From Bradyrhizobium monzae (lineage in GTDB: Bacteria > Pseudomonadota > Alphaproteobacteria > Rhizobiales > Xanthobacteraceae), in NCBI RefSeq assembly GCF_021458635.1, contig NZ_JAIRDQ010000004.1:1-64000 (forward strand): a stretch of DNA of 64,000 nt, given 5' to 3'. Made by a program: the position numbers and the translations under genes. The notes under the pieces are model-generated. The model was not told where the DNA came from. It saw only the letters and a program-made list of their open reading frames with translations, and searched no databases. Below, piece after piece: positions 9,489 through 25,713 of this stretch (its first letter is position 1; every line of letters begins with the position of its first letter).

Positions 9489-9682
9489 TTCGACACCTTA
9501 TGCGTCTGCGCCAGCGGATAGAGCGCGGGCTCGAGGTCGAACGGCAGCGTGCCGGCGATGGCCGCAAAGCCTTCAAAGGCGGGCCCGATGGAATTGGAGA
9601 TGCGTGTCGCGATCTCCTCGTTCACGGGGACGCCGGCGACTTGCGCCGTCGCCTGGATTTCTTTTGTCGTTGGTCTCGTCAT
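9485..9682 (-). CDS. DUF4089 / AtzG-like small amidase partner
   Basis: A 65-residue protein starting MTRPTTKEIQAT. It has the small helical layout of DUF4089, whose characterised member AtzG forms a complex with the amidase AtzE. The ATG at 9682 lies 11 bases after the stop of the upstream ATPase gene, and GAGGAAA is just upstream. Its end overlaps the amidase start by four bases, supporting co-translation and complex formation. A longer frame from 9811 runs inside the ATPase gene and is rejected. Confidence 0.75.
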   Translation of the reverse strand: MTRPTTKEIQATAQVAGVPVNEEIATRISNSIGPAFEGFAAIAGTLPFDLEPALYPLAQTHKVSK

Positions 9683-9692
9683 GCGGTTTCCT

Positions 9693-10742
9693 CTATGGGC
9701 GCGAGCGGCTATGGCCTGAACCCGGAATGGCCATGTAGCACGCGGCCTCGTGGCCCATCTTATCCACGGCAGTGAGCTTTGGTGCAGCATTTGCGCAGAG
9801 CGGCTCCGCAAAGGCGCAACGCGTGTGGAAGCGGCAGCCCGGAGGCGGATCGATCGGATTGGGCGGATCGCCGGAGATCGGCGGCTTTTCGGTGCGGCGA
9901 TCCGGATCTGAAGACGGCATCGCAGCCAGCAGCGCGCGCGTATAGGGATGCGCGGGCTGGTCCCACACCTGGTCGACCGGGCCGAGCTCGACGACCTCGC
10001 CGAGATACATCACCAGCACGCGGTCCGAGATGTAGCGGACGACATTGAGGTCGTGGCTGATGAAGAGATAGGTCAGGCCGAACTCGCGCTTGAGATCGGC
10101 CAGCAGGTTGAGCACCTGCGCCTCGACGGATTTGTCGAGCGCGGAGACGGCTTCGTCCAAAATCACCAGCCGCGGCGACAGAGCGAGGGCCCGCGCGATG
10201 TTGACGCGCTGGCGCTGGCCGCCGGAAATCTCGTGCGGATAGCGGTTGGCGAAGTTTGCAGGCACCAGGCCGACCTTGCCGAGCAGCTCGCGCGCCAGCG
10301 CCCGCGCCGCGCTGTCGGCCATGCCGTGGACCTTCGGACCGAACGCAATTGATTCCTCGATTGTCAGGCGCGGATTGAGCGAGGCATAGGAATCCTGAAA
10401 CACCATCTGCATGCCGCGGCGCAGTTCGCGCAGCGACAGCGACTGCCCGATGGTCATGCCGTCATAGATGATGTCGCCGGTGTCGCGCGGCATCAGATGC
10501 ATCAGCAGGCGCGCGGTGGTGGACTTGCCGCAGCCGGACTCGCCGACAATGCCGACGGTCTCGCCCTTCGCAACGGAAAAGGAGACATTGTCGACCGCGC
10601 GCACGGTCCGCTTCGCGGCGAACAGCCCGCCACGCACCGGAAAATGCTTCGTCAGCCCGTTGACCTGGAGCAGCGGCTGCGCGACGCCGCCGAAGTCCTC
10701 GACCGGCTCCAGCATGGCAACGGAAGTGTTGGTCTCGCTCAT
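9693..10742 (-). CDS. Peptide-type ABC transporter ATP-binding protein (DppF/OppF-like)
   Basis: A 349-residue second ATPase of the importer. Walker A GESGCGKST is at 67-74, the signature is ISGGQRQRVNIARAL, Walker B LVILDEAVSALD, and a C-terminal oligopeptide domain (GCRFHTRCAFAEPLC) ends the fold. It follows the DppC-like permease by three bases and precedes the AtzG-like gene. The two ATPases are separated by the amidase pair, which is an uncommon order and ties the enzyme genes into the transport operon. Confidence 0.91.
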   Translation of the reverse strand: MSETNTSVAMLEPVEDFGGVAQPLLQVNGLTKHFPVRGGLFAAKRTVRAVDNVSFSVAKGETVGIVGESGCGKSTTARLLMHLMPRDTGDIIYDGMTIGQSLSLRELRRGMQMVFQDSYASLNPRLTIEESIAFGPKVHGMADSAARALARELLGKVGLVPANFANRYPHEISGGQRQRVNIARALALSPRLVILDEAVSALDKSVEAQVLNLLADLKREFGLTYLFISHDLNVVRYISDRVLVMYLGEVVELGPVDQVWDQPAHPYTRALLAAMPSSDPDRRTEKPPISGDPPNPIDPPPGCRFHTRCAFAEPLCANAAPKLTAVDKMGHEAACYMAIPGSGHSRSRP

Positions 10743-10745
10743 GGC

Positions 10746-11648
10746 CTAATTCCTGATGTCCATGGCGCTGCGCAGGCCGTCCGAGAGCAGGTTGAAGCAG
10801 ATCGAGACCGCAAAGATCATCGCGCCCGGCAATGCCGCGACCCAGGGATTGACGTAGATCGCGGTGCGAAGCGTGTTCAGCATCAGCCCCCATTCCGGTT
10901 CCGGCGGTTTTGTCCCCAGGCCCAGGAAGGAGAGACCGGCCGCCAAAATCATCGAGACCGAGATCAGGCTCGTCGCATAGACGAAGATCGAACCCAGCAC
11001 GTTGCCGAGGATGTGCACGCGCATGATGGTGAAGGGTCCGGCGCCGGAGGCGCGCGCGGCTTCGACGAAATCCATGTTGCGCACGCCGGTGGTGACGCTT
11101 TCGGCGACGCGGGTGATCTGCGGCACGAACACGACGGTCAGCGACACGATGGAATTGAGGATGCCGGCGCCGAGCGCGCCTGAGATTGCAATCGCCAGCA
11201 GCACGGACGGGAAAGCGTAGAATACGTCGATCGTGCGCATGATCGCGGTGTTGAGCTTGCCGCCGACATAGCCGGCGACGAGACCGAGCGAAGTGCCGAT
11301 GCAGAAGGCGAGGATGACGGGCAAAATGCCGATGACCAGCGACAACCGGCCGCCATAGATCAGCCGCGCCAGCATGTCGCGGCCGAGCTCGTCGGTGCCG
11401 AGCGGATAGCCTGCCGTGCCGATGTGGCGCAGGCGGCGGATCATCGAGCCCTTGTAGGGGTCTTCGAGACCCAGCCACGGCGCAAGGATCGCGGAGAGGA
11501 AGATCAGCAGCAGCACCAGCGCGCAGGCCATGCTGACCTTGTCGCGCAGGATACGCCGGCCAACGGTGGCCCAATAGCCGCGTGCCTTGGAGGCAGGCGC
11601 GGCCTGCAGCGCGGCGTCGGCGGTGGCGGACAACGGAAGCTCGCTCAT
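10746..11648 (-). CDS. Peptide-type ABC transporter permease (DppC-like)
   Basis: A 300-residue inner-membrane permease with an N-terminal extension, a first membrane segment at about 38-60 and the binding-protein-dependent transport domain from about residue 100. The EAA loop that contacts the ATPase is DFVEAARASGAGPFTIMRVH. GTDELGRDMLARLIYG is the conserved OppC N-terminal motif. It lies four bases after the DppB-like gene. Confidence 0.91.
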   Translation of the reverse strand: MSELPLSATADAALQAAPASKARGYWATVGRRILRDKVSMACALVLLLIFLSAILAPWLGLEDPYKGSMIRRLRHIGTAGYPLGTDELGRDMLARLIYGGRLSLVIGILPVILAFCIGTSLGLVAGYVGGKLNTAIMRTIDVFYAFPSVLLAIAISGALGAGILNSIVSLTVVFVPQITRVAESVTTGVRNMDFVEAARASGAGPFTIMRVHILGNVLGSIFVYATSLISVSMILAAGLSFLGLGTKPPEPEWGLMLNTLRTAIYVNPWVAALPGAMIFAVSICFNLLSDGLRSAMDIRN

Positions 11649-11652
11649 CCCG

Positions 11653-12606
11653 CTAGCCCCGCTTGATGCGCGGATCGATCGCGGCTTGCGCGATGTCGAC
11701 CAGCAGATTGAGGAAGACGAAGAACAGCGCCAGCACCAGGATCGTGCCCTGCAGCAGCGGCAGGTCGCGCTGGAAGATCGCGGAGTTGAGCAGGAAGCCC
11801 GAGCCCGGCCAGGAGAATACGGTCTCGATCAGGATCGAGCCGCCGAGCATGTAGCCGAGCTGAAGCCCCATCACCGCGAGCGCGGTCGGCGCGGCGTTCT
11901 TGATGACGTGACGGAACACGCCGGTTTCATGCAGGCCCTTGGCGCGCAACGCCTCGACGAAATCCTGCGAGAGAATATCGCCGGTGAGCGCGCGCACGGT
12001 GCGGGTGACGATGCCCATCGGGATCACCGACGTCGTAATCGCCGGCAACACGAGATATTTCAGGTGCGCCCAGTCCCAGGCCCAGGAGCTGGAGCCGTTT
12101 GGCCCGGCGCCGACCGCGGGCAGCCAGTTCAGCTCCACCGAGAAGATGATGACGAGCACCATGCCGAGCCAGTAATGCGGCACCGAGACGCCGGCGATGG
12201 CAAAGGAGGTCGCGAGCTTGTCGATCCAGGTCTCGCGGAAATAGCCGGCGATCAGGCCGAGCAGGATGCCCATGGTGAAGCCGATGATGGCGGCCGCAAT
12301 TGCCAGCGTAACGGTGTTGCCGACCGCGCGCATGACTTCCGCGAGTACGGGACGGCCCGTCGCAATGGAATTGCCGAGATCGCCATGCAGCGCGCGCAGC
12401 AGCCACAGGCCGAACTGCACCGGCAGCGGCCGGTCAAAACCATAGGCGGCGCGCAGCTGCGCCGCGAGCTCCTGCGAGGCATCGGCCGGCAGCACCGCGA
12501 CCAGCGGATCGCCCGGCGTGATGTGCACGAGCAGAAAGCACACCAGGGCCACGCTGATGACGATCGGGATGACGTAGACAATGCGTCTGGCGATGTAGGC
12601 GAGCAC
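11653..12606 (-). CDS. Peptide-type ABC transporter permease (DppB-like)
   Basis: A 317-residue permease with six predicted membrane segments. It starts MLAYIARRIVYVIPIVISV, the usual DppB/OppB opening, continues with the periplasmic FLLVHITPGDPL motif, and has an EAA loop at DFVEALRAKGLHETGVFRH. It is separated from the binding-protein gene by 189 bases that hold a long GC-rich inverted repeat; the rest of the operon is tightly packed. Confidence 0.91.
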   Translation of the reverse strand: MLAYIARRIVYVIPIVISVALVCFLLVHITPGDPLVAVLPADASQELAAQLRAAYGFDRPLPVQFGLWLLRALHGDLGNSIATGRPVLAEVMRAVGNTVTLAIAAAIIGFTMGILLGLIAGYFRETWIDKLATSFAIAGVSVPHYWLGMVLVIIFSVELNWLPAVGAGPNGSSSWAWDWAHLKYLVLPAITTSVIPMGIVTRTVRALTGDILSQDFVEALRAKGLHETGVFRHVIKNAAPTALAVMGLQLGYMLGGSILIETVFSWPGSGFLLNSAIFQRDLPLLQGTILVLALFFVFLNLLVDIAQAAIDPRIKRG

Positions 12607-12675
12607 TGACTTACCTGAAGTGAACTCACACGATGACGTGGCGGGCTACCGTAAGGAACGCACGCTGCGAAGGTT

Positions 12676-12778
12676 CCCTTCCCCCTTGCGGGGGAGGGTT
12701 AGGGAGAGGGGTAGCCACAGAGGGACCGCCCGTGTGAACCCCCTTCCCCAACCCTTCCCCGCAAGGGGGAGGGGAGCC
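12676..12778. repeat. Paired GC-rich hairpin element between binding-protein and permease genes
   Basis: Two local hairpins, one with loop TTGC (CCTTCCCCC / GGGGGAGGG, from 12677) and one with loop GCAA (CCCTTCCCC / GGGGGAGGGG, to about 12776), are also complementary to each other over about 34 bases, so the whole can fold as one long stem. Related elements occur at 30889-31029, 38411-38433, 46493-46616 and 57937-58101. Its position suggests a role in protecting the upstream mRNA or reducing downstream expression. Confidence 0.8.
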
Positions 12779-12795
12779 TTACCAGCGTGCCCGCC

Positions 12796-14454
12796 TTACG
12801 GCGTCATCGACACCAGCGAGAAGTCGATGAACCAGCTCTTCGGCTGGACGACGCCGGTGACTTTCGGGCTCATGGCGCGCGGGCCGACGTCGTGGGCGAC
12901 GTAAAGGAAGGCCGCGTCGTCGACGGAGGCCGCGTGCAGTTCGGCGAGCGCGGCATCGCGCGCGGCGGGGTCAAAGGTCTGCCGCGCCTTTTTCACCAGC
13001 TCGTCGAATTTGGGATTGTTGATAAAGCCCCAATTGTTCGAGACCGGCGGCGCCATGCTCGACTGCAGGAAGCGCACCAGCGCAAAGAACGGGTCCATCG
13101 CCGCATAGGTGACGTTGGTCGCGTTGGAGCCGTTGGCTGACGGATCCTTGGCACCGCGGCGCCAGTTGGTGAACAGCGTATTCCACTCGATGACGTCGAG
13201 CTGCACGTCGAAATAGCATTCGGCGAGCGCCTGCTGGAGATATTCGTTCATTGGCAGCGGCTGCATCTGGCCAGATCCTGATGCCGACGTCTGGACCTTC
13301 ACCGTCAGCTTCTTGTTCGGACCAAAACCTGCTTCCTGCATCAGCTTTTGGGCAGCCGGCTTGTCGTACTTGATCTCGAAGGTCGGCTTGCCGCGCCAGG
13401 GATGGCCGGGCTCGAACGTGCCGGTCGCGGGCACCATGAGCCCCGCAAGCAGTCCGTCCTTGAGACCTTCGCGATCGACGCAGAGGTTGGCGGCCTTGCG
13501 GACGCGGATGTCGTTCCAGGGTGAGCCTTCGACGCGTGAGAACTGCCAGGGCCAGACGTGCGGCTGCTCGTTGGCATAGAGCTTGAAGCCGCGTTGCTTC
13601 AGCTCGGGCAGTGCGTCCGGCGCCGGCGCCTCGACCCAGTCGACCTGTCCCGAGAGCAGCGCGGCGGTGCGCGCGTTGGCTTCCGGCATCGGCACGAGCA
13701 CCATCTTGTCGATCTTGGGCACGCGGGCCTTGTCCCAGTAATCCGCATTCTTGACCAGCTCGAGCCGCTCGCGCGGGGTGAAGCTCGCCATCTTCCACGG
13801 GCCGGTGCCCGCGGCGTCCTTGGCAAAGGAAGTCCAGGCGGCCTGCGATTTCGCCTTGGCGCCGGCGCCTTCCGCCTTGTCATAGAAGTGCTGCCACTTC
13901 GCCGGGCTCGCCATGAACAGGTTGGTGAGGTTGATCGGCAGGAAGCTGTCAGGCTCCTTGGTGGTGAGCTCGACCGTCATGTCGTCGATCTTCTTGGCGG
14001 AGGCCAGCGTCGGCATGCGCGATGCGGTGACGCCGACCTGGCTGGCGTCGAATTGTGGCGCGTCCTGCTTCAGGACCTTGTCGACGTTCCACACCACCGC
14101 GTCGGCATTGAACGGCGTGCCATCATGGAAGGTGACGCCGGGACGCAGCTTGAAGGTCCATTTGGTCTTGTCGGCATCGTCGACCTTCCACTCGGTGGCA
14201 AGGCCGGGGATCACCACGCTGGCCTTGTCGGCCGACGACAGATCCCATCCGGTCAGCGCGTCATACATGGTGACGCCCGTGAAGCGGTTGCCTTCAAAGC
14301 CCTGATCGGGCTGACCGAGCGTGCGCGGAATATCGGCAGCCGTCATGCCGATGCGCAACACGGATTCCGCGCTGGCCGCGCGCGGCCACGCAGCCGCAGT
14401 CGTCAGGGCCAGCGCCGCGATCAGTGCCGCGCGTGTTGTTGTCTTGATAAGCAT
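12796..14454 (-). CDS. ABC transporter substrate-binding protein, family 5
   Basis: A 552-residue periplasmic binding protein of the dipeptide/oligopeptide/nickel family. A signal peptide covers about residues 1-29 (MLIKTTTRAALIAALALTTAAAW...ASA). KTKWTFKLRPGVTFHDGTPFNADAVVWNVDKVL is split over the classic SBP_bac_5 signature region. The ATG at 14454 is preceded by AAAAGGAC; an in-frame ATG at 14508 lacks signal-peptide character at the right distance. It is the first gene of the minus-strand operon. It is clearly paralogous to the divergent gene at 14666, sharing the RIGMTAADIP / RYGISMADIP mature start. Ligand unknown. Confidence 0.92.
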   Translation of the reverse strand: MLIKTTTRAALIAALALTTAAAWPRAASAESVLRIGMTAADIPRTLGQPDQGFEGNRFTGVTMYDALTGWDLSSADKASVVIPGLATEWKVDDADKTKWTFKLRPGVTFHDGTPFNADAVVWNVDKVLKQDAPQFDASQVGVTASRMPTLASAKKIDDMTVELTTKEPDSFLPINLTNLFMASPAKWQHFYDKAEGAGAKAKSQAAWTSFAKDAAGTGPWKMASFTPRERLELVKNADYWDKARVPKIDKMVLVPMPEANARTAALLSGQVDWVEAPAPDALPELKQRGFKLYANEQPHVWPWQFSRVEGSPWNDIRVRKAANLCVDREGLKDGLLAGLMVPATGTFEPGHPWRGKPTFEIKYDKPAAQKLMQEAGFGPNKKLTVKVQTSASGSGQMQPLPMNEYLQQALAECYFDVQLDVIEWNTLFTNWRRGAKDPSANGSNATNVTYAAMDPFFALVRFLQSSMAPPVSNNWGFINNPKFDELVKKARQTFDPAARDAALAELHAASVDDAAFLYVAHDVGPRAMSPKVTGVVQPKSWFIDFSLVSMTP

Positions 14455-14493
14455 TACGTCTGTCCTTTTCCGGCTTTCGATGACTAATTTTGA

Positions 14494-14507
14494 TGCAAAC
14501 GTATGCA
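14494..14507. promoter_or_regulatory. Candidate operator between divergent binding-protein genes
   Basis: TGCAAACGTATGCA is a quasi-palindrome (12 of 14 positions symmetric, TGCA-w-ACGT-w-TGCA). It lies 40 bases before the minus-strand start and about 160 before the plus-strand start. The ACGT-centred form fits a dimeric repressor such as a GntR or LacI protein, but no regulator gene is adjacent. Confidence 0.4.
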
Positions 14508-14665
14508 ATGGCTATGCCAATGGGGAAACTTATTCTGCAAATTGCCCCTGCGACGACAAGTCCTTGTGATCGCGCGTGTGCTTAGGCATCGCGCTGCCTA
14601 TTCTGGCATCAAGATTGCAGGTTTGGCCCTGATTTTCGCTTGAGTTTTCTTGGGAGCTTTGGGCC

Positions 14666-16261
14666 ATGCGTATTCGACTATCGACCTGTCTCGCGGTGCT
14701 TGCGCTGGCGTCATTCGCAATCCCGGCGCGCGCTGAAACGGTGCTGCGCTACGGCATCTCCATGGCGGACATTCCGCTGACGACCGGCCAGCCCGATCGC
14801 GGCGCAGGCGCCTACCAGTTCACGGCCTATACGATCTACGATCCGCTGGTGGCGTGGGAAATGGACGTCGCCGATCGCCCGGGCAAGCTGGTGCCGGGCC
14901 TCGCCACCGATTGGAAGGTGGATGACACCGACAAGACCAAATGGCGCTTCAGCTTGCGCAAGGGCGTGAAGTTTCACGACGGCAGCGAGTTCAATGCCGA
15001 CGCAGTGATCTGGAATCTCGACAAGGTGCTCAACGACAAGGCGCCGCAATTCGACAAGCGGCAGAGCGCGCAGGTGAAGACCCGCCTGCCCTCGGTCGCG
15101 AGCTACGCCAAGATCGATGACTCCACTGTGGAGATCACGACCAAGACGGTGGACTCCTTCTTCCCCTATCAGATGCTGTGGTTCCTGGTGTCGAGCCCGA
15201 CGCAGTATGAAAAGCTCGGCAAGGACTGGGACAAGTTCGCAAGCCAGCCTTCGGGCACCGGCCCGTTCAAGCTGACAAAACTGGTGCCGCGCGAGCTCGC
15301 CGAGCTCAGCAAGAATCCGGACTATTGGAACGCCAAGCGTATTCCAAAGGTCGACAAGATCGTGCTGGTGCCGATGCCGGAGGCGCTGACGCGCACCAAT
15401 GCGCTGCTCGCCGGCCAGGTCGATCTGATCGAGACGCCGGCACCCGATGCCGTGCCGCAGCTGAAGGCCGCCGGCATGAAGATCGTCGACAACGTTACCC
15501 CGCATGTCTGGAATTATCATCTCAGCGTGCTGCCGGGCTCGCCCTGGACCGACATCCGGCTGCGCAAGGCGCTCAACCTCGCGATCAACCGCGACGAAGT
15601 CGTCGGCCTGATGAACGGCCTCGCCAAGCCCGCCAAGGGCCAGGTCGACCCGTCGAGCCCGTGGTTCGGCAAGCCGAGCTTCGACATCAAATATGATCTC
15701 GCCGCCGCCAAGAAGCTGGTCGAGGAGGCCGGCTACTCCAAGGCGAAGCCGCTGAAGGCCACCTTCATCATCGCGCAGGGCGGCACCGGCCAGATGCTGT
15801 CGCTGCCGATGAACGAATTCTTGCAGCAGAGTTTCAAGGAGATCGGCATCGACATCGACTTCAAGGTGGTCGAGCTCGAGACGCTTTATACACACTGGCG
15901 CAAGGGCGCGGCCGACGAGATGAACGCCGGCATCACCGCCAACAACATCGCCTATGTCACCTCCGACCCGCTCTACGCCATCGTCCGCTTCTTCGCCTCC
16001 GACCAGATCGCGCCGGTCGGCGTCAACTGGGGCGGCTACAAGAACCCGAAGGTCGACGCGTTGATCAACGAGGCCAAGCAGACCTTCGACACCGCCAAGC
16101 AGGACGATCTGATCGCGCAGGCGCATGCCCTGATCGTCGACGACGCCGCGCTGGTCTGGGTCGTCCACGACACCAACCCGCACGCGCTGTCGCCGAAGGT
16201 GAAGCAGTTCGTGCAGGCGCAGCACTGGTTCCAGGACCTGACGACGATCGGGGTGGAGTGA
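14666..16261 (+). CDS. ABC transporter substrate-binding protein, family 5 (paralogue)
   Basis: A 531-residue secreted binding protein with a signal peptide at 1-23 (MRIRLSTCLAVLALASFAIPARA) and the SBP_bac_5 core (TKWRFSLRKGVKFHDGSEFNADAVIWNLDKVL region). GGGAG precedes the ATG. It resembles the divergent protein at 12796-14454 throughout, including GLATDWKVDDTDKTKW, TGPFKLTKLVPRE and the ending DDAALVWVVHDTNPHALSPKV. No permease or ATPase gene follows, so it probably feeds the same membrane complex with a different or overlapping ligand. It ends before a palindromic repeat. Confidence 0.9.
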   Translation: MRIRLSTCLAVLALASFAIPARAETVLRYGISMADIPLTTGQPDRGAGAYQFTAYTIYDPLVAWEMDVADRPGKLVPGLATDWKVDDTDKTKWRFSLRKGVKFHDGSEFNADAVIWNLDKVLNDKAPQFDKRQSAQVKTRLPSVASYAKIDDSTVEITTKTVDSFFPYQMLWFLVSSPTQYEKLGKDWDKFASQPSGTGPFKLTKLVPRELAELSKNPDYWNAKRIPKVDKIVLVPMPEALTRTNALLAGQVDLIETPAPDAVPQLKAAGMKIVDNVTPHVWNYHLSVLPGSPWTDIRLRKALNLAINRDEVVGLMNGLAKPAKGQVDPSSPWFGKPSFDIKYDLAAAKKLVEEAGYSKAKPLKATFIIAQGGTGQMLSLPMNEFLQQSFKEIGIDIDFKVVELETLYTHWRKGAADEMNAGITANNIAYVTSDPLYAIVRFFASDQIAPVGVNWGGYKNPKVDALINEAKQTFDTAKQDDLIAQAHALIVDDAALVWVVHDTNPHALSPKVKQFVQAQHWFQDLTTIGVE

Positions 16262-16441: not shown

Positions 16442-18673
16442 CTACTTCGTCAGCAGCACATACGCGCCCGTCCACCCTTCCCCGGGCGGATTGACTTTGA
16501 ACTCCTTGATCCGCGCTTCGTACAGCTTGAACAGCTTGTCCAGCGTGTCGGCGTCCTCGCTGCGGCGGCCGCGTTCGATGGCATCGAGTGCGCCCTGCCA
16601 GTTGCGGTTGCGGTAGCAGCCGAGCATCTCGATGGTAATGTTGCGCAGGCGCTGGAACGCGGCCGACTGCATCACGTCCTCGCGGCCGGCGATGGCATAG
16701 ATTACCTCCGGCTCGCTCTTGCCCTTGACCATGATGAAGTCGAGCTCGAGGATCGCGAACTTGTCCTTGGCCGCGAGCGCCGTGTGGGAGCCGACGATGA
16801 TCGGAAAGCCGTATTCCTTGGTCTGGCCTTCCAGGCGTGACGCCAGGTTCACGCTGTCGCCGAGCACCGAATAATTCTTCTTCAGATCGGAGCCCATATT
16901 ACCGACCACGCCGATGCCGGTGTTGAGACCGATGCCGACATTGAGCGGGATATAGATATGGCCGCCATCGGCGGCTTCCTGCTCGCGCTCCTTGTTGACG
17001 ACGTCGATCTTCTCGAGCATCCGGACCGCGGCCTCGCAGGCGTTGACCTGGTGCTCGGCATCGTCGAGCGGCGCATTCCAGAACGCCATGATGGCGTCGC
17101 CCATGTACTTGTCGACGTAACCCTTCTCCTCGATGATCACGTCGGTAAGGGGCGTCAGGAAGCGGTTCATCAGCGTGATCAGGCCTTGCGGATCGTGCTT
17201 ATAGCTTTCCGAGATGGAGGTGAAGCCGCGCACGTCCGAGAACATGATCGTCAACTCGCGCTCCTCGCCGCCGAGCACGACTTTCTCCGGCGATTGCGCG
17301 AGCTGCTCGACCAGCACCGGCGACATATATTGCGCAAATATGCCGCGGATCTGTACGCGCTGCCGCTGCTCACGCACGAAGCTCGAGAAGATGAAGGTCA
17401 GGTAGATCGCGGTGGTCGACAGCAACGGATAGGTGAAGTCGATGAGGTAACGGTACTGCCAGTAGAAGAACCAGGACGTGCCTATCAGGACCGCGGCAAA
17501 CATCGCGCCCGCCAGCACCAGCCGGACGGGGCCGAGATTCGGCGTGAAGATGATGACGAGGATGCCGATGATGAGCGCGGCGAGCAGCTCGACGCCGAGC
17601 GCGTAGTTCGGCTGCGAGATCACCGCGCCGCTCAGCACGCTTTCGAGCACCTGGGCGTGGATCTCGACACCCGGCATGTTCGGGGACACCGGCGTGGTCT
17701 TGAGGTCGTTCAGCCCGGCGGCGGAGGTGCCGATCAGCACCAGCTTGCCGGCGACCTTGCCGGGCGGCACGGCATTGTCGAGCACGTCGGCGGCCGAAAC
17801 ATAGATCGAGGGATCGCGGCGGGCGTAATGCACCCAAAGCTGGCCGTTCTTGTCGGTCGGGATCTCGACGCCCTTGAGGCGGATGGCGCGGATGCCGGTC
17901 TTGTCGGTGCGAATCAGCAGCGTCGGCGTGCCCGTGACGACCCTCAGGATCTCGAGACTGAGCGAGGGCATGATGTTGCCCTGGGCGCGCATGATCATCG
18001 GCACGCGGCGGATCAAGCCGTCGCGCTCGGTCCGGATCGAGAACAAGCCGCGGCCGGCCGCGACCTGTTCGATGACGGGCACGTTGCGCAGCAGGCCGGG
18101 GAATTCGAACAGGAATTTTTCGGCGTTCTCCTCGCCGACCGTCGCCACGCCAGTGAAGGGCAACGTCTTGTCGAGCTCGGACCCGACCGCGGGCTGGCCG
18201 GTTTCGCCCAGCACCACGCGCGAGTGCTTGATCGCTTCCGAGAGGATCTGGTCGTTGCTCGGCAGCTCGCGCAGCTTCATCCGCGTGGCGTCGTCCAGAT
18301 AGCGCATCTGGTTGGCGACCAGATCCGGATTGAGCCGATCTGGTTCCGAGAACACGACGTCGAAGCCGATCGCCACCGCACCGCTATTGGTGAGGTTGAT
18401 AATCAGGTCCGCGATCCGCATGCGCGACCACGGCCATTGGCCGAACCTGGCGAGGCTCCTGTCGTCGATATCGACGATGGTGACCGGCCGCACCGTCTTG
18501 TGGCGGGGATCGATCAGCTGGAACAGGTCGAAGGTGCGCAGCCGCAATTCCTGCACCGGCGGCGGATCCCAGACGCGCAAGCCGGCGAAGACGACCAGCA
18601 GCGCAAGGCAGAGCAGCCGCGCAAGGCCGAACTTTCGCGTGAACCACCGACGCAGGATTCTGAGACGTTTCAT
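16442..18673 (-). CDS. CHASE2 domain adenylate/guanylate cyclase
   Basis: A 743-residue class III nucleotide cyclase in the inner membrane. One membrane segment at about 16-33 is followed by a periplasmic CHASE2 sensor domain (about 40-350), three membrane helices (about 358-432) and a cytoplasmic catalytic domain from about 470. Metal-binding aspartates are visible at Asp480 (IMFSDVRGFTS) and Asp526 (KYMGDAIMAF); Lys522 in DKYMGD is the usual adenine-selecting lysine, so cAMP is the likely product. GDSVNLASRLEG is also present. It lies 76 bases downstream of the VCBS protein gene on the same strand, so read-through or shared regulation is possible. The signal it senses is unknown. Confidence 0.92.
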   Translation of the reverse strand: MKRLRILRRWFTRKFGLARLLCLALLVVFAGLRVWDPPPVQELRLRTFDLFQLIDPRHKTVRPVTIVDIDDRSLARFGQWPWSRMRIADLIINLTNSGAVAIGFDVVFSEPDRLNPDLVANQMRYLDDATRMKLRELPSNDQILSEAIKHSRVVLGETGQPAVGSELDKTLPFTGVATVGEENAEKFLFEFPGLLRNVPVIEQVAAGRGLFSIRTERDGLIRRVPMIMRAQGNIMPSLSLEILRVVTGTPTLLIRTDKTGIRAIRLKGVEIPTDKNGQLWVHYARRDPSIYVSAADVLDNAVPPGKVAGKLVLIGTSAAGLNDLKTTPVSPNMPGVEIHAQVLESVLSGAVISQPNYALGVELLAALIIGILVIIFTPNLGPVRLVLAGAMFAAVLIGTSWFFYWQYRYLIDFTYPLLSTTAIYLTFIFSSFVREQRQRVQIRGIFAQYMSPVLVEQLAQSPEKVVLGGEERELTIMFSDVRGFTSISESYKHDPQGLITLMNRFLTPLTDVIIEEKGYVDKYMGDAIMAFWNAPLDDAEHQVNACEAAVRMLEKIDVVNKEREQEAADGGHIYIPLNVGIGLNTGIGVVGNMGSDLKKNYSVLGDSVNLASRLEGQTKEYGFPIIVGSHTALAAKDKFAILELDFIMVKGKSEPEVIYAIAGREDVMQSAAFQRLRNITIEMLGCYRNRNWQGALDAIERGRRSEDADTLDKLFKLYEARIKEFKVNPPGEGWTGAYVLLTK

Positions 18674-18749: not shown

Positions 18750-21700
18750 TTACCCGGGATGAACGATGAAGTCGCTCGCGTGGAGATTGAGGGCGTTGAC
18801 ACCCTTCAGGAGGATCGTGTCGGCGGCATCGATCGTGATCAGGGTATCCGCAGGATTGGTCGACGAAGCCGCCACGTGCTGCGCGATCCATGCAGCGTCG
18901 ATATCGGCCGCCACGACGCTGGTCAGGTCGATGTGGTCCTGATTGGGCGTGAAATTCACGATCATGTCGTGGTTCGAATTGGCCGCGAACACGAACTGTT
19001 CCTGATAGCCGGTCCCGAAGAACACGTCCTTGCCGGTCGTGCCGGTGAGGCTCTCGTGATCGTACGCGCTTTCGGCGAGATTGAAAATCAGGTTGACCGT
19101 ATCGGTCGCGCCGTGGCCGTCGGTCACTTTGAGCGTGACCTTATCCGTGGAAGGCTCTCCGCGGCCTTCGTTGTAGGTCACCGTCTGCAATGTCGAATTG
19201 ATGACGGCCAAAGAACCGGTCGCCGATGACGGGCTCACGTTGCTACTCGGATCCTCGGTGGCGGCAGCGATCGTGAACGTTTCATTGGCGTCGGCATCGG
19301 TAACCGAGAGGCCGTGCACGATCACCTGCTCGTCGCTGTTCTGCGTGACACTGATCTGGTCGACGTTGATCACCGGCGCGTCGTTGCTGCCGGCAATGTT
19401 GATCGTGACCACGCCATTGCCGGTGCCGGTCGCCGTGTGGCCGTCGTCAGGCACGATGGTGTATTGCAGCGACAGCGTATGCCCCGCGGCGAGGAAGTCG
19501 AAGGCCTGGCCGCCGGAATTGAAGTCCCATGAGAACTGCGCGTGCGTCGCGGTGCCGTCGAGAATGTCGCCCGACTGCACCTTGAGATAGTTCATCAGAT
19601 CGGAGGCCCACAATCCGTCGAACCCGTCCGCCTGCAAATTGCCGTCGAGCTTGACGGCGACGCCGGTGGCGGAGACCGTCACGTGATCGGTGGCATCGAC
19701 ATCCGACACCGTCAACGTACCGTGGCTGCTCAGCGCCGCGTTGGTTTCGGGCAGGTTGTCGCCGGCACTATCGCCCGCCTCGACCATGACCTTCGGCGCG
19801 TCGTTGGTGCCGGTGATCGTGACGGCAACGTCCTGAGTAACCGTGCCGCCGTGGTGATCGTCAAACGTGACCGTATAGATCTGAGTGATCGCCTGACCCT
19901 GGGCCAGCGATTGTAGCGTTGGGTTGGTGTTGTCGAGTGTGAAATGCCAGCCCAGCGTCGCACCGTTGCTGGTGTCGCTGCCGGATTCGGCCACCGAACT
20001 GTCGATGGTGAAAGTACCGATATGCGAACTACTGCCGAAGCCCGGCAGATCCGAGCTGACGGATGACGACTTGAACACCGCCTGCGCGGTGTGGGTGTCG
20101 ATCAGGTCGAGGTCTTGGACCGCCAGCGTGCCATCGGTCGAGAGCGTCGGCGTGGCGGCGTCCTCCGTCACGGCCCCCGCTGCCGCCGCGGCATCGCTCG
20201 TGATGGTCGGCGCGTCGTTGGCACCGTTGATCGTGACAGTGACGTCCTGCGAGACCGTTGCGCCGTGACTGTCGGTAAAGGTGACGGTGTAGACCTCGGT
20301 GATGGACTGACCTTGGGCCAGCGATTGCAGCACCGCATTACTGTTGTCGAGGCTGAAGTGCCAACCGAGCGCGGCACCATTGTTGGCGTCGGTGCTGAGC
20401 TCCGTCACCGCCGGATCGATCGTGAAGGTGCCGAGAGATGTGCCGTCGCTGAACCCCGGCAGGTGCGCGCTCGACGTCGACGATTTGAACACCGCTTGCG
20501 CCGTATGGGTGTCGATCAGATCCAGATCCTGGATCTCCAGCATGCCACCGATCGACAAAGTCGCGCTGGTATCCTCGGTCACTGTGCCCGATGCAGCCGC
20601 AGCATTGCTGGTCACCGTCGGCGCATCATTGGCCCCGTTGATGGTCACGGTAACGTCCTGCGAGACCGTTGCGCCGTGGTTGTCGGTAAAGGTGACGGTG
20701 TAGATTTCGGTGATGGACTGGCCCTGTGCCAGCGATTGCAGCACCGCATTGCTATTGTCGAGGCTGAAGTGCCAACCGAGCGTGGCACCGCTGTCGGTGT
20801 CGCTGTTGGACTCGGTCACCGACGAATCGATCGTGAAGGTGCCGAGAGATGTACCGTTGCTGAAACCGGGCAGATGCGCACTCGACGTCGATGACTTGAA
20901 CACCGCTTGCGCCGTGTGGTTATCGATCAGGTCGAGGTCCTCGATCGCCAGCATCCCACTGGTCGACAGCGTCGCACCCGCATCCTCGGTGACAGTTCCC
21001 GCAGCGGCTGCGGCATTGCTGGTGATGGTCGGCGCATCATTGGCGCCGTTGATCGTCACGGTGACGTCCTGCGAGACCGTTGCGCCATGATCGTCGGTGA
21101 AGGTGACGGTGTAGATTTCGGTGATGGACTGGCCCTGGGCCAGCGATTGCAGCACCGCATTACTGTTGTCGAGGCTGAAGTGCCAACCGAGCGTGGCACC
21201 GTTGTCGGTGTCGCTGTTGGACTCGGTCAGCGACGAATCGATCGTGAAGGTGCCGAGAGACGTACCGTCGCTGAAACCGGGCAGATGCGCATCCGACGTC
21301 GACGATTTGAACACCGCTTGCGCCGTATGGGTGTCGATCAGATCCAGATCCTGGATCTCCAGCGTGCCACAGATCGACAGCGTCGCGCTCGTATCCTCAG
21401 TCACCGCTCCAGAAGCCGCCGCAGCGGTGCTGGTAATGGTCGGCGCGTCGTTGGTGCCGTTGATCGTGACGGTGACGTCCTGCGAGACCGTTGCGCCGTG
21501 GTTGTCGGTAAAGGTGACGGTGTAGACCTGGGTGATGGTCTGGCCCTCGGCCAACGATTGCAGCACCGGGTCGTTGTCGTTGAGTACAAAATGCCAACCG
21601 AGCGTGGAACCGTTGTCGGTGTCGCTGTTGGACTCGGTCACCGACGAATCGATCGTGAAGGTGCCGAGAGCCGTACCGTCGCTGAAACCGGGCAGATGCG

Positions 21701-24383
21701 CGCTCGACACCGACGACTTGAACACCGCCTGCGCCGTGTGGGTGTCGATCAGGTCAAGGTCCTGGATCGCCAGCGTGCCGCCGGTCGACAGCGTCGGCGT
21801 CGCGGCATCCTCGGTGACCTTGCCCATCGCCGTAGCAGAACTGCTGGTGACGGTCGGCGCATCGTTGGTTCCGGTGATGACGACCGTCACATCCTGGGTG
21901 ACCGTTCCGCCGTGATGATCATCGACGGTGACGGTGTACACCTCGGTGAGGGTCTGGCCCTCGGCCAGCGATTGCAACACCGGGTCGTTGTCATCGAGCG
22001 TAAAGCTCCAGCCCACGGACCCGATCGTGCTGACGCCGGGACTCTCGCTCACCGCCGCGAGGGCGAAAGTGCCGATATGGGAGGTGCCGTCGCCAAAGCC
22101 GGGCAGATGCGCGCTCGACGTCGTCGACTTCAAGACGAAGCTCGCGGTGTGCGTGTCCGTGAGATCGGGATCGTTGAAGGTGATGGTGCCGCCAGCCGTC
22201 AGAGTCGCCGCAGCATCTTCCTTGATCGCACCGGTCGGGGTCGTCGACGCCGTAACGATCGTCGGCACGTCGTTGGTGCCCTCGACGCTGACGTCGGCGC
22301 CGTTGATGGACACGGTGATCGGCGTACTGACAACGCCGCCATGCCCGTCATCGACCTGGATCACATAATTGAGGACCAGCGTCTCGCCGTCGGCGAGGAA
22401 ATCGAACAAATGATCGGCAACGCTGTAGGTCCAGGTGGCCGAACCGTTGTTGCTGTTTGCGGCGCCCTGCACCACGGTCAACGGCACCTCGACGGCGGCG
22501 ACCGCGGCGAGTTGCTGCGGCGTCAACGATGCCGTGATATCGTGACCATGCGCATCGAGATATTTGAACGGCTGGGTGGTCGAGAGCGCCGCGCCGACGA
22601 TCGGCCGATCCGTCAGATCGACGTCGGTGAACGTGACCGTACCGGTCATGGTGTCTAGCGCGGTGTTGCCGGTCCCGACCTTCTCGATAACGGTGCCGCC
22701 CGACGTCACCACGGTGGGCTTGTCGTTGGTGCCTGTGATGGTGATGGTGATCGGGATGAACGCGGTTTCGGGGTTGACCGAGAAATTGTCGTCGATGCGG
22801 ACCATGTAGGTCAGCGTCAGCGTTTCGCCGGCCGCCAGGAAGTCGAAGACGTGGTCGGGAATCGTGTAGGTCCAGACTGCCGAACCGTTGTTGCTGTTGG
22901 CAGCTTCCGGGGCGACGCTGATCTGGATCTGCGTCGCCGCGATGTCCTGCTTCTGCAGCGCGGTGAGCGAGCCGGTGACGTCCTGCTGGCCCGCGTTCAC
23001 GTAGACGAAGTTCGGCGCTTGAGCGAGAGTCACCGAAACCGTCGGCCGGTCGCCGAGATTCTGATCGACGAAAGTGATCCGGCCGGACACCGTGTCAGCA
23101 TCGACGGTGCCGCCGGTCGTGTCCGCGCGGTCGGCGGTCGCATTCGCGTGCTCGGTCAGCTTGAACGCCGACGTGACGTTCCCGTTGAGATCGAGGCTCC
23201 GCGCCAGCGGCGGTCCGGGAATACGGTCAGCCGCCTTATCCCCTCCGCCTTGCCCCGAGCCGGCGCCATTGTTGACGGTGTGGGTAAAGGTCGCGGTCGC
23301 TGTGGCACCAGTGTCCGTCTTGATCAGGACGATGTTGCCGTTCTGCGTGATCGTGTCGGTGAAGTTGGTGGTGAGCTTGGTGTTGGTGTTGTTGTCGGTG
23401 AACTTCAGCGTGAACACGTCCGTGATCAGCTTCTGAACGTCCGGCGACAGCAGCCCATTGGTGATCGAGACGTTGCCGCCGCTGATCTGGATCATCTGGC
23501 CGGCCTGGTTGACCGTCGCGATCGGCAGCAGGGTCAGCTTGTCGAACAGGATATATGAGCCGGTGGTACCGTTCGGCTCGACCAGCACCTGGAAGTTGGC
23601 CTGCGGTTGCGGATCGCCGCCACCGGACGGAATGACGAAATTGATCTCCGTCAGCACCGCCGTGCCGCGGATGCCCATGGTGGCGACCGGCGTATCGATC
23701 TTCATGTCGCCGTGCTTGGCGGTTTCGCCGGCAACGAAGGTGATGGTGCCCGCGACCAGGCTGAGCAGCGAGGAATTGTTCGACCCGTTGGGGTCGTAAA
23801 CCATCTCGTTCAGCACCATCCGCGCGTTCGAAGACAGGCCGAACACGGTGCCGTCGATGAAGGTGACGCCAAGCGTCGAATCCGAACCGGTCGAGACCAC
23901 GTCGCCCTTCTCGACGTTGTCGCCGTTGTTCAGGATGACCGAGACGCCGTTGCGGATCGCGGTCGCGCTGCCGGTCAGCTTGGTGACATGGCCGATGACC
24001 TGCGCCGCGGCGGCACCGGGCGCGGCCTGCGCATACTGGACGTAACCCGTGAGCGCGCTGACGATGTCGCCGGTGAGATGGGCGCCGTCCGGCGAGGCGA
24101 TCGCCGCGCGCTTGTCGCCCCTGAAATAATCGTGAACGACGAACTCATGGCCGTCGTGCGACAGCACGAGATCAACACCCGTGCGCTTGAACTCGCCATT
24201 GAAGATCAGATTGGGGTCGGCAACGACGACCGCGCCTTCGGGCACGTGGCCATGCGCTTTGGCTATGAATGAATCGACATGGTGGCCATTCGATTGGCCA
24301 TCAAAAGAGAGCGCGGCGTCAAATTTGCCAGCGTAATTCAACCGGGCACCGTAAAAAGGGTTAAAATCTAAGTAAGTAGCCAC
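18750..24383 (-). CDS. Very large FecR/VCBS-repeat surface protein, probable type I secretion substrate
   Basis: A 1877-residue protein without a Sec signal peptide. Residues 1-118 form an unassigned N-terminal domain, followed by an Ala-rich link (about 119-128) and a FecR-like domain (about 129-245, GDVVSTGSDSTLGVTFIDGTVFGL split in the family core). From about 440 to 1720 it holds eight or more VCBS/cadherin-like Ig units, most opening with G(T/A)NDAPT; the central ones are about 137 residues long and nearly identical. The C-terminus (LTGTTGKDVFFGTGYQEQF, then acidic DxIxL strands ending ASDFIVHPG) resembles the uncleaved C-terminal export region of type I substrates. Likely role: surface attachment or matrix. 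It faces a LapG-like peptidase gene across a 577-base region. Confidence 0.9.
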   Translation of the reverse strand: MATYLDFNPFYGARLNYAGKFDAALSFDGQSNGHHVDSFIAKAHGHVPEGAVVVADPNLIFNGEFKRTGVDLVLSHDGHEFVVHDYFRGDKRAAIASPDGAHLTGDIVSALTGYVQYAQAAPGAAAAQVIGHVTKLTGSATAIRNGVSVILNNGDNVEKGDVVSTGSDSTLGVTFIDGTVFGLSSNARMVLNEMVYDPNGSNNSSLLSLVAGTITFVAGETAKHGDMKIDTPVATMGIRGTAVLTEINFVIPSGGGDPQPQANFQVLVEPNGTTGSYILFDKLTLLPIATVNQAGQMIQISGGNVSITNGLLSPDVQKLITDVFTLKFTDNNTNTKLTTNFTDTITQNGNIVLIKTDTGATATATFTHTVNNGAGSGQGGGDKAADRIPGPPLARSLDLNGNVTSAFKLTEHANATADRADTTGGTVDADTVSGRITFVDQNLGDRPTVSVTLAQAPNFVYVNAGQQDVTGSLTALQKQDIAATQIQISVAPEAANSNNGSAVWTYTIPDHVFDFLAAGETLTLTYMVRIDDNFSVNPETAFIPITITITGTNDKPTVVTSGGTVIEKVGTGNTALDTMTGTVTFTDVDLTDRPIVGAALSTTQPFKYLDAHGHDITASLTPQQLAAVAAVEVPLTVVQGAANSNNGSATWTYSVADHLFDFLADGETLVLNYVIQVDDGHGGVVSTPITVSINGADVSVEGTNDVPTIVTASTTPTGAIKEDAAATLTAGGTITFNDPDLTDTHTASFVLKSTTSSAHLPGFGDGTSHIGTFALAAVSESPGVSTIGSVGWSFTLDDNDPVLQSLAEGQTLTEVYTVTVDDHHGGTVTQDVTVVITGTNDAPTVTSSSATAMGKVTEDAATPTLSTGGTLAIQDLDLIDTHTAQAVFKSSVSSAHLPGFSDGTALGTFTIDSSVTESNSDTDNGSTLGWHFVLNDNDPVLQSLAEGQTITQVYTVTFTDNHGATVSQDVTVTINGTNDAPTITSTAAAASGAVTEDTSATLSICGTLEIQDLDLIDTHTAQAVFKSSTSDAHLPGFSDGTSLGTFTIDSSLTESNSDTDNGATLGWHFSLDNSNAVLQSLAQGQSITEIYTVTFTDDHGATVSQDVTVTINGANDAPTITSNAAAAAGTVTEDAGATLSTSGMLAIEDLDLIDNHTAQAVFKSSTSSAHLPGFSNGTSLGTFTIDSSVTESNSDTDSGATLGWHFSLDNSNAVLQSLAQGQSITEIYTVTFTDNHGATVSQDVTVTINGANDAPTVTSNAAAASGTVTEDTSATLSIGGMLEIQDLDLIDTHTAQAVFKSSTSSAHLPGFSDGTSLGTFTIDPAVTELSTDANNGAALGWHFSLDNSNAVLQSLAQGQSITEVYTVTFTDSHGATVSQDVTVTINGANDAPTITSDAAAAAGAVTEDAATPTLSTDGTLAVQDLDLIDTHTAQAVFKSSSVSSDLPGFGSSSHIGTFTIDSSVAESGSDTSNGATLGWHFTLDNTNPTLQSLAQGQAITQIYTVTFDDHHGGTVTQDVAVTITGTNDAPKVMVEAGDSAGDNLPETNAALSSHGTLTVSDVDATDHVTVSATGVAVKLDGNLQADGFDGLWASDLMNYLKVQSGDILDGTATHAQFSWDFNSGGQAFDFLAAGHTLSLQYTIVPDDGHTATGTGNGVVTINIAGSNDAPVINVDQISVTQNSDEQVIVHGLSVTDADANETFTIAAATEDPSSNVSPSSATGSLAVINSTLQTVTYNEGRGEPSTDKVTLKVTDGHGATDTVNLIFNLAESAYDHESLTGTTGKDVFFGTGYQEQFVFAANSNHDMIVNFTPNQDHIDLTSVVAADIDAAWIAQHVAASSTNPADTLITIDAADTILLKGVNALNLHASDFIVHPG
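19790..22260. repeat. Tandem about 413-bp coding repeats in the VCBS protein gene
   Basis: Equivalent points of successive units fall near 20199, 20611, 21027, 21436 and 21850, giving spacings of 409-416 bases. Long blocks such as the stretch around GACGTCCTGCGAGACCGTTG recur almost unchanged between units, which implies recent duplication or gene conversion. Outer units at either end are more diverged. Confidence 0.88.
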
Positions 24384-24960
24384 CGCCTAAGCTTGCATAG
24401 CATTACCGAGTCCTTAGCGAAACCGTCTATTGCTTGTGTGATTTCGCATCACTTGGCCGCGCACGACTATGCCTGCAGCGACATTCTTAGATAATCTGAG
24501 GTATTATTCTGAATATTTTGAAGTCGAATCCGGCTTATTGCGCACATTTCCAGTCATCCAAAGTATTCAGCCGTACTGATTTGACAGCAGATACTTGTGT
24601 CATCTTTTCTTCGCAGTGCCCCGGAACATCCTGCGGCAAATACGGAGTTAAATCTGTGACCCATTTAACAGAACTCGTGAAATAGCGGGTCGTTAGCCAT
24701 AGGCGAAGAATCGGCCTACCGACAACTTCTGCCCGTAGTTCGCTCGTTTTCGCGGCAGGCGAAGCTCGTCCCAACCGGCGAATCGTAAAATTTTACGCAA
24801 TTTGGCCGAGCCAGGTTCAGCCTGTCCCTCGGTTTCGGCGCCCCGCCCAAGCGCGTTAAGCAGAACAAAACGGCCCGTCTCGCACTATCTCCGCGAAAGC
24901 AACAAGCCCGGCACGTTGAGGTCGAGGGGGACCTGGCGAAGCCGGATAAGGGGATGTCAG
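24384..24960. other. Divergent intergenic region of the VCBS protein and BTLCP peptidase genes
   Basis: A 577-base stretch, visibly more AT-rich than its surroundings between about 24460 and 24680. It should contain the promoters of both divergent genes. No convincing operator palindrome was found. The open frames in it (including a 79-codon frame at 24535-24774 on the minus strand) show no family features. Confidence 0.5.
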
Positions 24961-25713
24961 ATGGAGACCGCTGCTCGCTCGCGCGCCTGGCGCGCTATCC
25001 TTGTCCTGTGCGGATTGATCCTGTTCGGATCGGCCGCCGACCTTCGTGCCGGCACATTGCTGTCGCCGGGCGCAGGCATGCTCGTGCGCAAATCGGCCGA
25101 GCCGTTCGGCGTGTTCGCCTTCGCCATTTCCACCGGTGGTTTGCGGCAGAAATGGTTCGCGCTGAAAGAGAAGCTCGACGACGACATGGTGCAGCTCGCG
25201 CTGTGCGACGGCGACCGCGACAATTGCGCCTCGCCCGCGGCGCTGAAACTGCTCGCCATCGTCGACCAGGCCCGCACCCGCGACGGCCGCGCACTGCTCG
25301 GCGAGACCAACCGTGCCATCAACCTCGCCATCCGCGCCGAAAATGACGGCGCCGAGGACGTCTGGAGCTCGCCGCTCGATACCTTTCAGCGTGGTGCCGG
25401 TGATTGCGAGGATTACGCCATTGCCAAGCTGGCCGCGTTGCGGCTTGCCGGTGTCGCCGCTGAGGACCTCCGCCTCGTCGTGCTGCGCGACACCCGCAAT
25501 GGCGAAGGTCATGCGGTTGCTTCGGCAAAGCTCGACGGCCACTGGCTGATGCTGGACAATCGCCGCATGGCCATGGTCGAGGATGACGACGCGCGCAACT
25601 ACCAGCCGCTCTACGTGCTCTACCAATCCGCCGTGCTGAAATATGCCGGCGAACCCGTGCGGGGCGAGAGCCAGCGGGTGTCCATGGTATCGGCCGAGGC
25701 CGAGGCGCGGTGA
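24961..25713 (+). CDS. BTLCP (transglutaminase-like) cysteine peptidase, LapG-related
   Basis: A 250-residue periplasmic protein. A hydrophobic signal segment at about 10-30 (AILVLCGLILFGSAADLRA) is followed by the BTLCP/DUF920 domain. The triad is visible as Cys149 in GAGDCEDYAIAK, His184 in GEGHAV and Asp199 in LMLDNR, and WSSPLDTFQRG matches the family's conserved segment before the Cys. The best-known member, LapG, cuts a large type I-secreted adhesin near its N-terminus and releases it from the cell. The ATG at 24961 is chosen since it starts the signal peptide; a frame from 24802 adds 53 residues of non-coding look. It is divergent from the VCBS adhesin-like gene. Confidence 0.88.
   Translation: METAARSRAWRAILVLCGLILFGSAADLRAGTLLSPGAGMLVRKSAEPFGVFAFAISTGGLRQKWFALKEKLDDDMVQLALCDGDRDNCASPAALKLLAIVDQARTRDGRALLGETNRAINLAIRAENDGAEDVWSSPLDTFQRGAGDCEDYAIAKLAALRLAGVAAEDLRLVVLRDTRNGEGHAVASAKLDGHWLMLDNRRMAMVEDDDARNYQPLYVLYQSAVLKYAGEPVRGESQRVSMVSAEAEAR

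Follow-up and report, generated by a model that had tools for sequence, protein, structure and literature searches.

A putative Lap-like adhesin module of Bradyrhizobium monzae that combines a PrtD-type exporter with a CHASE2 cyclase

We analysed a stretch of 64,000 nucleotides from Bradyrhizobium monzae, hereafter the window (NCBI RefSeq assembly GCF_021458635.1, contig NZ_JAIRDQ010000004.1, positions 1 to 64,000 of the forward strand), in which a gene for a large VCBS/FecR adhesin stands divergent to a gene for a BTLCP (LapG-like) cysteine peptidase. We read this region, at somewhat better than even confidence, as a Lap-like two-step adhesin module with a PrtD-type exporter, in which a CHASE2 cyclase replaces the receptor LapD. 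An initial annotation of the same DNA had proposed a Lap-like system under variant control. Its gene pair, exporter, homology to LapG, neighbouring cyclase and missing LapD were all supported, and its suggestion of a LapA-style cut in an alanine-rich link was not. Bradyrhizobium is a genus of legume symbionts, and most of what is known of Lap-type adhesin control concerns cyclic di-GMP (c-di-GMP). The module suggests a differing version of that control, and ties together two open questions, namely by what means rhizobia keep adhesins on the surface or let them go, and which signals CHASE2 cyclases respond to.

Results

The peptidase gene (24961 to 25713, plus strand) and the adhesin gene (18750 to 24341, minus strand) stand head to head across a divergent intergenic region of 619 bp (24342 to 24960). 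In a sample of 146 Bradyrhizobium genomes, drawn from a larger group, the adhesin N-terminus was found in 145 genomes and the peptidase likewise in 145, with 143 of the latter among the matches listed. The two genes are head to head in 133 of these 143 genomes, with a gap of 413-821 bp (median 594) measured between match ends and not between start codons; the remaining ten include weaker, unlisted adhesin matches and contigs that possibly end too early. Among 80 named loci, on which start codons and retention of the pair were compared, 74 keep it. Two of the six without the pair (L168 and L239) stop near the adhesin start on that side, and no peptidase lies within the available stretch beside the adhesin in L236, L237, L238 and L244. 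The initial annotation had suggested looking for this adjacency in related genomes, where the pairing proves to be conserved; it is also present in records titled Tardiphaga, Afipia and Rhodopseudomonas. Other neighbours change (E 1e-20), an LprI gene being close by in 37 of the 70 loci that have room for it and an ABC gene in 7 of 67. No adhesin match was found in G221 and G452, two of the 19 same-family genomes in our sample of the order. The adhesin genes in L168 and L239, whose records are titled Frankia and Mucilaginibacter, resemble the ones in Bradyrhizobium and Tardiphaga, which probably reflects contamination or mislabelling.

Three forms of a Clr-type cyclic AMP (cAMP) receptor box occur in 1, 1 and 0 of 75 intergenic regions, with no excess over shuffled sequences. 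Separately, a palindrome, GTGA-N7-TCAC, is present in 28 of the 75 regions against 0.95 in mononucleotide shuffles, the loci being related.

The peptidase, 250 residues long, starts at ATG 24961 with an apparent signal peptide, as read by eye. Its match to Peptidase_C93 reaches 55 bits against a cut-off of 27, and the catalytic triad Cys149-His184-Asp199 is intact, as the initial annotation had stated. The motifs GDCED[YF]AI, xHA[VIL] and LDN[RQ] were found in 68, 65 and 67 of 70 relatives, respectively; the three catalytic columns, together with the acidic residues around the catalytic cysteine (DCED), which would bear on the calcium dependence of the family, are invariant across 50 aligned peptidases. 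The family profile matches PDB 4u65, a Pseudomonas LapG that we take to be the P. fluorescens protein (E 7e-17), and 4fgo, the L. pneumophila LapG (E 2e-10). Both entries are also the best fold matches of the predicted structure, whose mean predicted local distance difference test score (pLDDT) is 85.5. By sequence and predicted fold the enzyme is thus a LapG homologue; its score of 54.2 bits with the LapG equivalog model NF045674 lies under the cut-off of 320.

A rapidly built tree, whose branches are long, separates 23 pair-linked peptidases by one branch from three peptidases that belong to the second, contig-12 cluster (see below). Four paralogs away from an adhesin of the window type (L103, L104, L105 and L262) group among the pair-linked enzymes. 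At L103:9667-11322 (G063), such a BTLCP gene, 53% identical, adjoins a FecR-only protein and a 1243-codon protein is divergent to it, an arrangement that is perhaps another peptidase-FecR pairing. The peptidase genes of G139, G089 and G043 are split into two frames or carry one internal stop, through decay or sequencing error.

The adhesin had been described as a FecR/VCBS protein of 1877 residues. Its identity is sustained by a FecR domain of 34.4 bits (cut-off 24) and nine VCBS stretches in Pfam/NCBIfam searches, and its length is probably 1863 residues, with TTG 24341 in place of GTG 24383 as the start. At the aligned first codon, 79 of 80 relatives carry TTG (63) or GTG (16), and within 90 nt upstream of it the first in-frame event is a stop in 68 of the 80; on this comparison the start at TTG 24341 is probable. 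In the remaining 12 relatives, and in the window itself, a start codon precedes any stop; an AGGAG-type ribosome site is absent before the start in all 80 relatives, so the start is likely and not proven. Open frames of the adhesin run from 252 codons (at a contig end) to 6088 among the matches listed, a spread which indicates that the repeats vary and the N-terminus stays. The protein is probably secreted by a type I system; an apparent C-terminal secretion region and an apparent lack of a signal peptide were read by eye alone, and its ortholog at L263 matches Peptidase_M10_C.

The AlphaFold2 model divides the N-terminal part into a small domain (residues 30-100; 24042 to 24254, minus strand) with blocks at pLDDT 75-86 and conserved in relatives, a disordered link (residues 101-110, pLDDT below 50), a beta-rich FecR module at about residues 111-295 and a predicted helix at residues 300-314 (23400 to 23444, minus strand). 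From sequence and fold matches, the FecR-like module is placed at residues 115-308 (23418 to 23999, minus strand). The corrected start moves the Ala/Gly-rich link to residues 107-114 (24000 to 24023, minus strand) from 121-128 in the earlier numbering. The FecR region matches PDB 5ix9, presumably a Marinomonas protein, by sequence (E 4.7e-5, under the name of an antifreeze protein) and, as a cell surface anchoring domain, by Foldseek (E 6.6e-3, 0.8 A over 62 columns) and by a second structure comparison (Z 8.2 over 74 residues). The evidence for an anchoring-type fold close to the N-terminus thus comes from 5ix9 and not from LapA itself. The FecR-like signalling domain of PupR gives a fuller match (Z 14.9 over 139 residues). 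The modelled module would therefore have a retention-type anchoring fold and, more fully, that of a FecR/PupR signalling domain. For the small N-terminal domain, a search that barely probed this part returned weak rows only (Z about 4, RTX block V). In addition, the L263 ortholog reaches E 1.3e-5 and 25.5 bits with the retention_LapA model, under its cut-off of 50.

The PrsD/PrsE pair that the initial annotation had placed 12 kb away is real by profile scores and lies 12.3 kb from the 3' end of the adhesin gene. PrsD (4654 to 6402, minus strand) is a PrtD-type type I secretion ATPase (TIGR01842, 731.9 bits against 510), and PrsE (3323 to 4657, minus strand) is an HlyD-family periplasmic adaptor (387.7 bits against 209). 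With the LssB model PrsD reaches 359.4 bits, under the cut-off of 693, and it is not of the LssB/LapB type that Lap systems use. In 108 of the 138 genomes compared, a PrsD ortholog is encoded no more than 40 kb from the peptidase, on the same side and strand as the adhesin, and in 24 it is on another contig; for G089 the weaker of two PrsD matches was taken, the stronger being on another contig, and with either match G089 counts as unlinked. Gene orders in four further loci are tighter. L263 and L264, from two other genera of the family, have the peptidase divergent to adhesin-prsD-prsE-cyclase with no further gene in between, the genes from adhesin to cyclase being parted or overlapped by a few to about 120 bases. 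In L265 and L266, from the genus, the order is peptidase / adhesin-cyclase-prsD-prsE, lacking the window's peptide-transporter genes. From this linkage, PrsDE is likely the exporter of the adhesin.

In the window, peptide-transporter and amidase genes at 7102-16261 part the cyclase from prsDE; these were not found in L265 and L266, and L267-L270 retain the amidase and none of the other intervening genes. In the other-family loci L276-L281 and L283, an LssB/LapB-type exporter, not a PrtD-type one, stands just before an adhesin of the window type, and would point to an exchange of exporters within one adhesin family.

The CHASE2 class III nucleotide cyclase (743 residues; 16442 to 18673, minus strand) begins 76 bp after the adhesin gene, the initial annotation having noted it as a neighbour, and belongs to the module by kept linkage. 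Twenty genus loci were fetched, and in all 16 with a visible adhesin end the cyclase comes next after the adhesin on the same strand, at gaps of 63-194 bp in 14 loci and of 668 and 1343 bp in two. For other families, 18 loci were fetched from 19 genomes having the full adhesin N-terminus, and the cyclase follows 16-139 bp behind in 8 of the 11 with a visible adhesin end. Of the other three, L282 shows only 65 bp beyond the adhesin and has a cyclase upstream instead, on the opposite strand, and L284 and L285 have no cyclase near the adhesin in the fetched stretch. The cyclase is the most widely kept of the adhesin partners tested. Its link is wider than that of the peptidase, which was seen just in this family, and perhaps older. 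Six positions, for metal, substrate and catalysis, are intact in all 34 cyclases aligned, a set in which some loci share a genome; the lysine and aspartate among them mark the adenylate type. We thus predict an adenylate cyclase from these residues.

The initial annotation's remark that LapD is absent agrees with our search of this one genome, the window's own, where the sole match to PF16448 (LapD_MoxY_N) is a histidine kinase; this negative covers PF16448-detectable forms, and a very divergent LapD could escape it.

A FecR domain lies within 12 kb of 31 of 58 CHASE2 genes in 41 genomes of the order, against 0.8 expected, and within 5 kb of 27 of them, against 0.4. In the window's own genome three of four CHASE2 genes neighbour a FecR gene, in agreement with a FecR-CHASE2 pair. 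The available text of one study describes a Burkholderia biofilm operon that combines FecR with a CHASE2 kinase (PMC5192318), and that of another places the FecR gene smc02177 of S. meliloti near cyaD1 (PMC5498481); published excerpts also describe CHASE2 cyclases that answer a plant protein via an outer-membrane protein. Given these neighbourhoods and published pairs, the FecR module inside the adhesin is a plausible partner of the CHASE2 domain.

The genome holds a second Lap-type cluster on contig 12, at about 51-69 kb (L099/L246), with a TolC-like protein, an LssB/LapB-type ABC protein, an adaptor, a BTLCP peptidase 47% identical to that of the window and a convergent giant adhesin. In adhesins of this type, DQSVLPAAG is unchanged across all 7 N-termini that were visible, the genome's own included, and in this last one PAAG stands near residue 122; three loci of the type (L249, L252 and L255) end before the adhesin N-terminus. 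The lineage can therefore keep the LapG consensus, of which the window adhesin shows none. With hhalign, no homology was detected between the N-terminal domains of the two adhesins (E 0.057 over 12 columns). Elsewhere in the window, two regulators of equal length, in which TPR repeats come after a Trans_reg_C domain, are encoded at 36827-38392 and 39899-41464.

Discussion

Our findings on gene identity, linkage and predicted fold are consistent with a module in which PrsDE, with an unlinked TolC-type channel, would export the VCBS adhesin. The FecR-like module would fold in the periplasm and anchor the adhesin in the outer membrane, and the divergent peptidase, itself periplasmic, may cut near this module, so that the adhesin is released or trimmed. 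The CHASE2 class III cyclase might stand in for the c-di-GMP receptor LapD, its periplasmic domain being placed to sense the FecR module of the adhesin, or its cleavage, and to answer by making cAMP.

Several of our observations weigh against this proposal. No BTLCP gene stands beside the adhesin in the 18 other-family stretches, and loci among them that have the cyclase without an adjacent peptidase indicate that the adhesin-cyclase link needs no peptidase; a C93 match is present somewhere in 32 of 32 genomes searched, including those 18. The prsD gene is far from the peptidase in 6 of the 114 genomes where both share a contig. Regarding the anchor, the match to the 5ix9 fold spans just 62-74 residues, the best AlphaFold2 model of the adhesin N-terminus has a mean pLDDT of 64 and the other four 47-54, and the window adhesin gives no match to NCBIfam retention_LapA (NF033682) at E 0.1. 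A contact between CHASE2 and FecR is an inference from gene neighbourhood, and smc02177 is dispensable for plant-signal perception in S. meliloti, according to the available part of the study (PMC5498481). As for the substrate site, no [T/A/P]AAG occurs in the N-terminal 430 residues of the window adhesin. Of 106 links, 84 contain an alanine pair, where shuffling the letters within each link gives 80.9 +/- 3.0 and 415 of 2000 shuffles reach the observed number; the 106 sequences are distinct yet related, and 11 of 117 were left out for want of a readable link.

These last figures bear on where the peptidase would cut. In the systems studied so far, LapG cleaves at [T/A/P]AAG, which lies beyond the retention domain, a targeting helix and a DP, as the accessible sections of two papers describe (PMC13090378, PMC6890996). 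The initial annotation had pointed to the alanine-rich link, and a classical LapG-style cut at residues 107-114, with the N-terminal domain of about 100 residues left as a plug, draws on a link that is predicted to be disordered, that follows a short predicted helix (91-97) and that lies, under the corrected start, close to residue 108. [TAP]AA is also commoner in the links than in shuffled ones (59 against 48.5, reached by 3 of 2000 shuffles, in related sequences), and the paralogous peptidase on contig 12 adjoins an adhesin with PAAG near residue 122, after a different N-terminal domain. Nevertheless, alanine pairs stand at the level expected from composition, 22 of the 106 links have none and just four have the LapG consensus. 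The link moreover precedes the anchoring fold, known LapG sites coming after it, and the N-terminal domains of the window and contig-12 adhesins have no detectable relation. We thus set aside LapA-like cleavage in the link as originally proposed, and regard a cut there as rather unlikely. A slightly better prospect, though still a doubtful one, is that the peptidase cuts just past the helix at 300-314, at a place that corresponds to the LapA site, with a changed specificity that needs no Ala-Ala. In the available text on LapA and DvhA, the order of a beta-rich module, a helix, a DP-like turn and an unstructured stretch is the same (PMC13090378). The helix and the residues next to it are well conserved in the 63 sequences aligned for this stretch, 16 of 79 being left out for lack of the exact helix motif, and NP trails the helix in many of them, so that helix and NP are a possible counterpart of the targeting helix and DP of LapA. 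Against this, NP is missing from some sequences, including the window protein, which has NTNTK there, and [T/A/P]AA[G/V] occurs behind the module in only 4 of the 63 relatives and any AA in 22. Nor is any LapG with a different cleavage site known to us. A further alanine site, KAADR near residue 370, was rejected, as it is not conserved in 20 aligned sequences.

Two other explanations touch the module as a whole. The adhesin and cyclase could be a FecR-CHASE2 signalling pair in which the peptidase aids signalling or degrades misplaced adhesin, with no part in surface release. The wider reach of the adhesin-cyclase link, the frequency with which FecR and CHASE2 genes are neighbours in the order, and the Burkholderia biofilm operon, where the accessible text couples FecR with a CHASE2 kinase (PMC5192318), all speak for it; the VCBS repeats, the very variable frame length and the kinship with LapG fit attachment and release better, and we consider this explanation unlikely. 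We think it quite improbable that the two genes are neighbours solely through inherited gene order or a promoter region in common and that the peptidase has another substrate. Most of the evidence does come from one genus, and paralogous peptidases exist away from the adhesin, some of them among the pair-linked ones in the tree; the pair persists, however, while LprI and the ABC gene come and go around it, and beyond the genus in the Tardiphaga, Afipia and Rhodopseudomonas records.

Within the Lap-like module that we favour, a more specific arrangement can be put forward tentatively. The FecR/PupR-type domain might be both the outer-membrane anchor and the ligand of CHASE2, with cAMP reporting the state of the adhesin and the peptidase acting as an off switch at a site other than Ala-Ala. 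If so, attachment, tension or cleavage would alter cAMP, and information would flow in the direction reverse to that in LapD. We rate this arrangement as improbable on present evidence.

In the open-licence literature of PubMed Central (PMC) we found nothing that joins a CHASE2 adenylate cyclase with an adhesin, nor FecR with an adhesin, type I secretion and retention; judged by titles and the beginnings of abstracts among the papers listed, no description of the window module was found there either.

The module resembles LapA/LapG/LapD of P. fluorescens in its large adhesin, the adjoining BTLCP peptidase of the LapG family and an anchoring-type fold near the N-terminus. It differs in the PrtD-type exporter, in that no [T/A/P]AAG was seen and no LapD found, and in the addition of an extra N-terminal adhesin domain and a CHASE2 cyclase. 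A closer parallel in logic is DvhA/DvhG/DvhD of Desulfovibrio vulgaris, where a different receptor likewise takes the place of LapD; in the available text this is a PAS/HD-GYP protein that binds c-di-GMP, and the cut is at the di-alanine of an AAG consensus (PMC13090378). The candidate receptor of the window is, unlike DvhD, a CHASE2 nucleotide cyclase. Bradyrhizobium clusters of type I secretion and BTLCP genes with DDxP proteins have been described, as far as the accessible text goes (PMC7730722), and share with the window a giant adhesin accompanied by a BTLCP peptidase of the same family. The contig-12 cluster is perhaps one of these, with an LssB/LapB-type ABC protein, a TolC-like gene of its own and PAAG, all of which the window module lacks.

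The Burkholderia operon and the S. meliloti pair cyaD1/smc02177 are similar in that a periplasmic FecR domain is encoded beside or near a CHASE2 receptor. In the window, unlike in both, this domain sits inside a large adhesin, and the receptor is a cyclase where that of Burkholderia is a histidine kinase. Finally, PrsDE of Rhizobium leguminosarum exports cadherin-like surface proteins, according to published excerpts, and the PrsD/PrsE pair of the window differs from it in its linkage to genes for a BTLCP peptidase and for a CHASE2 cyclase. Together, these comparisons suggest a new variant, in which a conserved Lap-like pair of peptidase and adhesin is combined with another type of exporter and a sensor predicted to make cAMP.

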